In this document: positions 3,826 through 50,147 of the stretch, in pieces | Position numbering within the stretch: the first letter of the stretch is position 1 | Layout: every line of letters begins with the position of its first letter | Assembly (NCBI GenBank): GCA_024226735.1 | Contig: JAAELL010000079.1 | Coordinates: forward strand, 1-64,000 | DNA: 64,000 nucleotides | Direction of reading: 5' to 3' | DNA from: a bacterium | Lineage (GTDB): Bacteria; Planctomycetota; UBA1135; GCA-002686595 | The notes under the pieces: model-generated | The model's input: the letters and a program-made list of their open reading frames with translations, nothing else | The model's database searches: none | What the model was told of the DNA's origin: nothing | Position numbers and translations under genes: made by a program

Positions 3826-4823
3826 GCGACCCTCCCGCGCAGAACGAGGTCGGCGAAGGCCTCGCCGGTTCCCCGATGGAGGTGCCGCTCGAGGTCGGGT
3901 CCGTCGGACAAGAAGGCGATCGGGAGTTTCTCGTGCACGGCATGCTCCAGGGCAGTGACGGGCTGGTGGGTCTCGTCGAGCTTGGTGATGATGCAGCCAG
4001 ACAGCTTCAAGCCCGAGCACGCCTCGGCGGCAGCCTCGAGCGCGCTGATGCTGCTGGTCGCGGACACTACGCGGTAGACGTCGACCCGCACATTCGCACG
4101 CGCGGCGTGTGTCGCGAGGTCTTGGATCGACTCCATGTCGCGCGCGTCGGTACCCGACGTGTCGAGCAGGACGACCTCGGCTCCCCAGACCTGGTCCGGG
4201 TTGAGGACGCGCGCCGCGGCGTCGAGCGCGAGCGCGGGACATCCGAGCAGAGTGCCGTAGCCGCGCAGCTCCTCGATGGCGCCGATGCGCGTCGCGTCGA
4301 GCGTCGCGAGTGAGACGCGTCGTCCGGCGCGCCGCAGGCGCAGGGCGAGCTTCGCCAGAGTCGTCGTCTTGCCGACCCCGGCCGGTCCGACGAAGGCGAG
4401 GACCGTGGTCTGCCCCCGCTTGTGCTCGAGGTGCGCGACCGGGAAGACGTCCGAAAGCTCCTCGGCCGCCAAGTCGAGCGGATGCTTGTCCTCCGCCAGG
4501 CGACCGGCGACAGCCTCCGCGATTCGGTCGACGAGCCGGTCGGAGCAGCCGGTGCGGTGCATGCAGCGCTCGACGTCACGCGTGTCGGCGAGCAGCGGCG
4601 CGCCCGCACCGGCACGCTGTGGCGCGGCAAGGACGCGCCGCGCTTGGCTGCGGAGCGCCTCGAGCGCGCCAGCGGAGCGCGGAACCTCGTCGGAAACGAC
4701 GAGCGTCACGGCACCGCCCACCTGCGAGCTGTGGGAGATCACGACGGCTTTGTCGCCGATTTGGCTGCGCGCGCGCTCGAGCGCCTCGCGCAGGTTACGT
4801 CCCCGAACCTGGTGGATCTGCAT
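3822..4823 (-). CDS. flhF: SRP-type GTPase FlhF
   Basis: 333 aa. The N-terminus MQIHQVRGRNLREALERARSQ... is the typical FlhF B-domain start. The NG domain carries P-loop GPAGVGKTTT at 146-155, a DATRIGAIEEL segment, LLDTSGTD as the switch motif and TKLDET for guanine recognition. FlhF marks the site of flagellar assembly and recruits early components to the membrane. Here it sits between flhA and flhG, with only 3 nt to flhA and a 4-nt overlap with flhG. The linker between B and NG domains is short compared with Vibrio FlhF. Confidence 0.95.
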   Translation of the reverse strand: MQIHQVRGRNLREALERARSQIGDKAVVISHSSQVGGAVTLVVSDEVPRSAGALEALRSQARRVLAAPQRAGAGAPLLADTRDVERCMHRTGCSDRLVDRIAEAVAGRLAEDKHPLDLAAEELSDVFPVAHLEHKRGQTTVLAFVGPAGVGKTTTLAKLALRLRRAGRRVSLATLDATRIGAIEELRGYGTLLGCPALALDAAARVLNPDQVWGAEVVLLDTSGTDARDMESIQDLATHAARANVRVDVYRVVSATSSISALEAAAEACSGLKLSGCIITKLDETHQPVTALEHAVHEKLPIAFLSDGPDLERHLHRGTGEAFADLVLRGRVA

Positions 4824-48804: not shown

Positions 48805-49794
48805 ATGATCCCCCATCACGCTCTGCTCGTTCCCCTGGCCCTGTTGGTCCCTGGCTGCCGCGGCGACGGTCACGAAGAGGTCGAGCCGTCACGCGCGGAA
48901 CGGCTCGCCGGCCCCTGGCGCCAGATCGAGGGCGAGGACCTCGTCGAGGTCCTGCCGCGCGACGGCATTCCCGCGATCGACGACCCGACGTACGTCTCCG
49001 CGCAGGAAGCCGAAGCGTTCCTCGCACCCGACGAGGCCGTCCTGGGCGTCGTCGGCAAGAACGGGACCGCGCGCGCCTACTCCGCGTGGCAGCTCGACCG
49101 GCACGAGATCGTCAATGACGACCTCGACGGTGAGCCGATCGCGGCGACCTGGTGACCTCTGGCCAACGCGGGGGTCGTGTACTCCCGCAACGTCGAGGCT
49201 GACGATGGAACCCTGCGTACGGTCCTCGATTTCGGTGTCAGCGGCAACCTGTGGCACGGCGTGCTCGTGATGTACGACCGCCAGTCCGGATCGTTCTGGA
49301 CACAGCTCGACGGTCGTTCGATCGAGGGGGACTACGCGGGCACACGGCTCGAGCACGTCGCGTCGACGTTCACGACTTGGGAGCGCTGGAAGGCCGCACA
49401 TCCGGACACCGAAGTCCTGTTCAAGCCCGAAGACGAGCGCGGTCAGGGCGAGTCCAACTACGCGAGTTACTTCGCCGACCCCGATCGGCTCTTCCTCGAT
49501 CGACTGGGCGAAGGCCTGGGGGGCAGCGTCGGACCGAAGACGACCGTCCACGGCGTCGTCATCGGCGAGACGGCATGGGCGGTCACCGAGGAACTCGTGG
49601 CCGCCGACGGCGCCGTGACATTCGGCGCCGCGGGCGAGCTCGTCACTCTGCACTACGACCCTGATACCGAGCGCGTACGCGGCGTGGCCAGGTCGCGCGG
49701 CGGCGACGACCAAGGACGCAGCGTCCGCGTCGATCGAGCGTTCTGGTACGCCTGGTCCCGCTCCCATCCCGGCTCACGCATAATGACGCGATGA
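48805..49794 (+). CDS. DUF3179-family lipoprotein with in-frame TGA (possible selenocysteine)
   Basis: 329 residues if the TGA at 49153-49155 (codon 117) is read through. Ordinary annotation would split it into 48805-49155 and a GTG-started 49177-49794. The start ATG at 48805 gives a lipoprotein signal (LLVPG-C). The family normally has T-(Y/W)-C-P-L-C; here it is T-W-[TGA]-P-L-A, so the stop is exactly at the conserved cysteine. The frame stays intact for another 213 codons with normal G/C-rich codon use (NAGVVYSRNVEADDG, SGNLWHGVLVMYDRQSGSFWTQLDGRSIEGDYAG, and the end AFWYAWSRSHPGSRI). A single TGC-to-TGA mutation making a pseudogene is the alternative. It overlaps a deiodinase-family remnant by ATGA. 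Confidence 0.75.
49168..49188 (+). promoter_or_regulatory. Candidate SECIS-like hairpin after the in-frame TGA
   Basis: Stem GCGGG (49168-49172) with CCCGC (49184-49188) and loop GGTCGTGTACT. The stem begins 12 nt after the TGA, and the loop starts with GGTC about 17 nt after it. The E. coli formate dehydrogenase element has its GGUC loop at nearly the same distance. A five-pair stem can arise by chance in such GC-rich DNA. Confidence 0.35.
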
Positions 49795-50147
49795 GGACCC
49801 CCCCTACCTGATCGCCCTTGCGCTCGGCTTCAGCGCCTGCAACACGACACGCGACGCGACCTCCGACACGGCGCTTCCGGTCGTCATCGACGAGTCGGTC
49901 GTGGCCGGCGGGCGGTGGCCGGCATCCGGTGGTCGAGGACCCGGTCACGCTAGAGGAGCGGCTCGACCTCGCGCCGCTGCCGACTGTGGTCGACGGGATG
50001 GACGATCGCGTCAACAAGAGCTACGGCGCCTGGCCCGAGCGGCTGTACCTGATCGCGAAAGGCGGCCAAGTCGCCTACCGCGGCGGTCCGGGGCCGTTCG
50101 AGTTCGACCCCGACGGGCTCGTGGAGGCGATCGAAGCGCTGCGCTGA
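49791..50147 (+). pseudogene. Broken iodothyronine-deiodinase-family lipoprotein
   Basis: The ATG at 49791 overlaps the preceding gene. A run of seven C (49798-49804) puts the frame out by one; one more C would give a lipoprotein signal (YLIALALGFSAC). The frame changes again near 49910 at a duplicated GTGGCCGGC. It then ends as PVTLEERLDLAPLPTVVDGMDDRVNKSYGAWPERLYLIAKGG...GGPGPFEFDPDGLVEAI, the C-terminus of the deiodinase-like family. The catalytic segment with Cys or Sec (GSxT(C/U)PPF) is absent, apparently deleted between the 9-bp repeats. Confidence 0.72.

Follow-up and report, generated by a model that had tools for sequence, protein, structure and literature searches.

The internal UGA codon of a DUF3179 gene from a Planctomycetota metagenome-assembled genome (MAG) is almost certainly read as selenocysteine (Sec), judging from its conservation, the Sec machinery of the genome and a covarying hairpin downstream. 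It is highly probable that this UGA, at codon 117, is served by SelB-hairpin Sec insertion, and that the product is a DUF3179 selenoprotein, exported and probably lipid-anchored. The gene lies in a window of 64,000 nucleotides (the whole stretch of DNA that was analysed) on contig C79 of a 9.0 Mb MAG, which consists of 612 contigs and is 88.8% complete. A preliminary description had proposed a Sec-containing DUF3179 protein at this position, a reading now supported by the machinery, the conserved UGA and the covarying hairpin.

The DUF3179 gene and its protein

The features of the locus are as follows.

48805-49794, + strand: DUF3179 (PF11376) lipoprotein gene, 329 residues, predicted Sec at residue 117, terminal stop TGA at 49792-49794
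48805-48858, + strand: signal peptide with a lipobox-like end, LVPGC, and Cys18 as placed by alignment
49153-49155, + strand: in-frame UGA, predicted Sec (residue 117), in the invariant Cys column of the family
49168-49188, + strand: predicted bSECIS hairpin, stem 49168-49175 with 49181-49188, loop CGUGU at 49176-49180
49791-50147, + strand: remnant of an iodothyronine deiodinase-like gene (PF00837, 4e-10)

A single TGA had been described within a frame of about 330 codons, and its coordinates were correct: with the TGA read as a residue, the gene comprises 329 codons, one internal TGA at codon 117 and a TGA terminus. The product matches PF11376 over residues 52-318 with 213.5 bits (5.6e-63), exceeding the gathering cut-off of 27, and the DUF3179 match thus spans the internal TGA. 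The closest named genes, retrieved with the part of the alignment that follows the Sec codon, stand at the Planctomycetota MAG loci L044-L046 and show 51-55% protein identity. As the three closest relatives all have the equivalent of Cys18 in the alignment, and LVPGC may be read as a lipobox, the protein is likely an exported lipoprotein. On the minus strand, a lipoprotein-like gene points away from the DUF3179 gene. No NCBIfam model matches the protein, the PDB holds no solved relative, and an AlphaFold model built from a four-sequence alignment is poor (mean pLDDT 56).

The motif around the predicted Sec is U-P-L-A, with Ala120 at position +3 from residue 117. Cys18 is the sole cysteine of the mature protein, and the alignment of UPLA proteins contains no second Cys column common to them. 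Glu101, Asn104, Gly147 and Asp158 are invariant around residue 117 in 17 aligned homologues, and His100 is shared by all of the four closest proteins.

Selenocysteine machinery

The search for selA, selB, selC and selD proposed in the preliminary description found all four in the same genome. The tRNA-Sec gene (selC) is located at C32:2183-2276 (74.6 bits) and is called by ARAGORN as tRNA-SeC with anticodon tca (UCA), while SelA is encoded at C32:6243-7610 (489 bits) and SelB at C28:5967-7862 (364 bits). SelD, at C32:5076-6023 (locus L078, 330 bits), has one in-frame TGA of its own and is therefore probably a selenoprotein itself. With selA, selC and selD on contig C32, selB on C28 and the DUF3179 gene on C79, their linkage rests on binning. 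This worry is largely answered by the close relatives G027, G008 and G020, since each of these genomes holds the DUF3179 gene, tRNA-Sec and SelB together. Among the 61 genomes of the bacterial family and order, own genome included, tRNA-Sec scored above the cut-off in 58, and so did SelB in 58; as a rule, this lineage uses Sec.

One in-frame TGA, taken alone, could equally fit a UGA codon reassigned throughout the genome (to Trp, for example), or simple read-through that needs no selenium. Yet the full Sec pathway with a UCA tRNA-Sec is present, the terminal stop of the gene is itself a TGA, TGA-less homologues carry Cys in that column, and the hairpin described below is specific to TGA genes. 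Such a reading is therefore very improbable.

Conservation of the UGA and selection on both halves

DUF3179 matches were found in 17 of the 61 family and order genomes, most of them with exactly one in-frame TGA. The TGA of residue 117 aligns in an invariant column of 17 homologues, where non-Sec homologues have Cys. Both the proposal that the TGA occupies the conserved Cys of the DUF3179 motif and the suggested comparison of this column among relatives (TGA or Cys) were thereby borne out. At the loci fetched, the TGA occupies the same motif column in 27 distinct Sec genes from many bacterial families, which fall into three motif types, U-P-L-A, U-P-L-C and U-P-L-T. The U-P-L-A type comprises the window gene and seven others (L018-L020, L028, L080, L088 and L102), and the motif of 22 Cys genes is C-P/T/S-L-C or C-P-L-A.

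More widely, DUF3179 was matched in 34 of 154 genomes of the class and in 136 of 392 genomes of the phylum sample, where, among the matches listed, 56 genomes have a DUF3179 gene with an in-frame TGA. A clear tRNA-Sec is present in 47 of these 56 genomes vs 34 of 63 with only TGA-less DUF3179 genes (Fisher P = 7e-4), a comparison among the matches listed that leaves out weak, unlisted ones. The phylum scan applied strict filters and scored ten candidates per genome, and under these filters the nine TGA genomes without a clear tRNA-Sec are mostly fragmented MAGs. In genome G310, contig C23:156826-160500 holds several DUF3179 genes in a row, only some of which have an in-frame TGA.

Purifying selection acts on both sides of the UGA. 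Among the four closest genes, amino-acid identity is ~47-58% upstream and downstream alike, and third codon positions are the most variable on both sides; downstream of the TGA they differ at 0.49-0.59, vs 0.27-0.33 at the first two positions. Equal identity on both sides together with this third-position excess indicates that the 3' half is translated and under selection, in agreement with the coding character that had been noted there. A TGC-to-TGA null mutation, leaving a pseudogene with an untranslated 3' half, had been named as the rival explanation. Decay does occur nearby, as the broken deiodinase-like remnant at 49791-50147 illustrates, but decay of the 3' half, which was to be expected of a dead gene, is absent. 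As this half is conserved as much as the 5' half, a null mutation is excluded for practical purposes; moreover, the same TGA recurs in four divergent genera, at 51-55% protein identity, and in genomes from across the phylum, and the SECIS covaries. An error of sequencing or assembly at a genuine Cys codon might be suspected in a single MAG with frame breaks in the adjacent remnant. It is, however, the least probable reading of all, with independent assemblies sharing the TGA at the same codon along with a covarying hairpin.

The bSECIS hairpin

In the minimum-energy fold, an 8-bp stem begins 12 nt past the UGA (-21.3 kcal/mol for a stretch of 48 nt; z = -2.1). The hairpin noted earlier near the place of bacterial SECIS elements was thus correctly located, with a stem starting at that distance, but its loop is CGUGU and not the GGTC first reported; a GGUCU loop stands at the same place in UPLT relatives. 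Rfam gave no SECIS match at the window hairpin, and published bSECIS criteria were therefore applied by hand. These call for an apical loop of 3-9 nt and an upper stem of 4-16 bp, a G within the first two positions of the loop, with G or U as the usual next base, a spacing of 16-37 nt between UGA and apical loop, and a minimum free energy of at most -7.5 kcal/mol (PMC13188914). The window hairpin agrees with all four, with a loop of 5 nt, a stem of 8 bp, a spacing of 20 nt and -14.0 kcal/mol for the hairpin alone.

The folding search suggested beforehand showed that the hairpin is present, and alignments showed that it covaries in TGA genes only. In an ungapped alignment of the 27 Sec genes, the loop nucleotides G28 and U29 (alignment numbering) are invariant and 96.8% of the cells of the seven core pairs are paired, while shifting the partner by 1-3 columns lowers pairing to 32-46%. 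Cells changed on both sides number 42 in Sec genes vs a shuffled mean of 13.3, and the covariation score is 0.613 vs 0.200 in shuffles, none of 500 reaching as high. In the same columns of the 22 Cys genes, 47.4% of cells are paired, which is the chance level given by shuffles, and the mean local hairpin energy is -10.9 kcal/mol in Sec genes vs -4.8 in Cys genes (P = 1e-7). Similar residues are encoded at this place in the Cys genes, which means that coding constraint is not by itself a sufficient explanation of the hairpin. A null mutation, an error of sequencing and a reassigned code were each rejected on the conserved TGA and frame, the Sec machinery and the hairpin.

Exchange between Sec and Cys

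With the Sec/Cys column masked, an unrooted maximum-likelihood tree requires two state changes. One group holds 19 Cys genes, while the CPLA Cys genes L092, L094 and L105 fall within the Sec group, beside the UPLA gene L088 (100/98). The strict-filter scan found no clear tRNA-Sec in the genomes of these three genes (G470, G495 and G410). Their placement fits a Sec-to-Cys reversion, the direction of which would be an inference since the tree is unrooted. L105, with its motif codon near 1716, forms all seven hairpin pairs, and the full hairpin is missing in L092 and L094. The L105 hairpin may be a relic of a SECIS, and relics of this sort have been described (PMC1794560).

Deiodinase-like neighbours

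The start of the deiodinase-like remnant overlaps the DUF3179 stop as ATGA. The remnant is frameshifted, with a lipoprotein-type signal peptide and a C-terminal part in different frames, and it lacks the half that bears the catalytic Sec in relatives. Two related loci have a deiodinase-like frame with a motif of its own.

L044:3439-4665: EF-hand and deiodinase-like frame, in-frame TGA at 4249-4251, FGSYT-U-PPFRR (T-U-P-P-F)
L028:113-767, - strand: deiodinase-like selenoprotein gene, FGSFT-U-PPF

The L044 frame is directly upstream of DUF3179, overlapping its start as GTGA, and the two apparently form an operon of two selenoproteins, one of them with an EF-hand fusion. The L028 gene is adjacent to and divergent from a UPLA DUF3179 gene. 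In total, a deiodinase-like gene adjoins DUF3179 in three of five UPLA loci of the window's bacterial family. No deiodinase-like neighbour was seen in the other loci among the window and the 40 wider loci examined, which limits the link to this bacterial family; a family-wide link between DUF3179 and deiodinases is not claimed.

Possible mechanism and function

We infer that Sec is inserted at residue 117 in the following way. SelA and SelD would make Sec-tRNA(Sec). SelB would bind the hairpin that begins 12 nt past the UGA and deliver this tRNA to the ribosome at codon 117, so that Sec would replace the conserved Cys of the DUF3179 family. The protein may then act as a redox or selenol-nucleophile enzyme. 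The lack of a second cysteine in the mature UPLA protein rules out an intramolecular U-C pair, which is possible in UPLC members. More likely would be either a site with a single selenol that an external thiol returns to its reduced state or a metal site.

It could also be that Sec is inserted but binds a metal or has a structural role, and does not act as a redox nucleophile. This would suit a mature protein without a partner cysteine, as well as the invariant Glu101 and Asn104 and the His100 shared by the four closest proteins. Nevertheless, Sec is redox-active in most characterised selenoproteins, and the UPLC and CPLC members retain a CxxC-type pair, making a purely metal-binding or structural role unlikely. 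Returning to the redox reading, it could be speculated that UPLA proteins form a distinct DUF3179 branch of one-selenol exported enzymes. In some lineages their genes would share a transcript with that of a deiodinase-like selenoprotein, and the two proteins would act jointly in one extracytoplasmic redox or dehalogenation step. This proposal is doubtful as it stands, if slightly less so than the metal or structural role.

Relation to known selenoproteins and significance

DUF3179 is already listed as a selenoprotein family, UxxC/T (PMC9312934, PMC13188914), and these reviews trace the listing to Zhang and Gladyshev 2007 and the Olavius algarvensis Delta 1 symbiont. The listed proteins share with the window gene the Pfam family, Sec at the conserved Cys column and an in-gene bSECIS. 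However, they have C or T at +3, where the window gene, from Planctomycetota, has the Ala120 of U-P-L-A and thus no redox residue, placing it outside the UxxC/T definition. In RefSeq, proteins such as WP_338918211.1 (Salinirubellus) and WP_254705406.1 (Ruegeria) are named 'DUF3179 domain-containing (seleno)protein'; these belong to the same family, and NCBI has already flagged the possible Sec, but the Salinirubellus match has Cys in its motif (WCPIC), unlike the window gene. The Planctomycetota CPLA homologues L092, L094 and L105 share its subclade and the Ala at +3, yet they differ in having a Cys codon in genomes without a clear tRNA-Sec.

While the DUF3179 selenoprotein family is thus known, the window gene is a further well-supported member with an unlisted UxxA motif, and it adds to the family a well-supported Sec branch that is widespread in Planctomycetota. 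Read as a stop, the TGA truncates the gene at residue 116, and the protein is therefore easily mis-annotated in such MAGs. Finally, the pairs of UPLA and CPLA genes, together with the deiodinase-like neighbours, provide a concrete starting point for work on the function of DUF3179.
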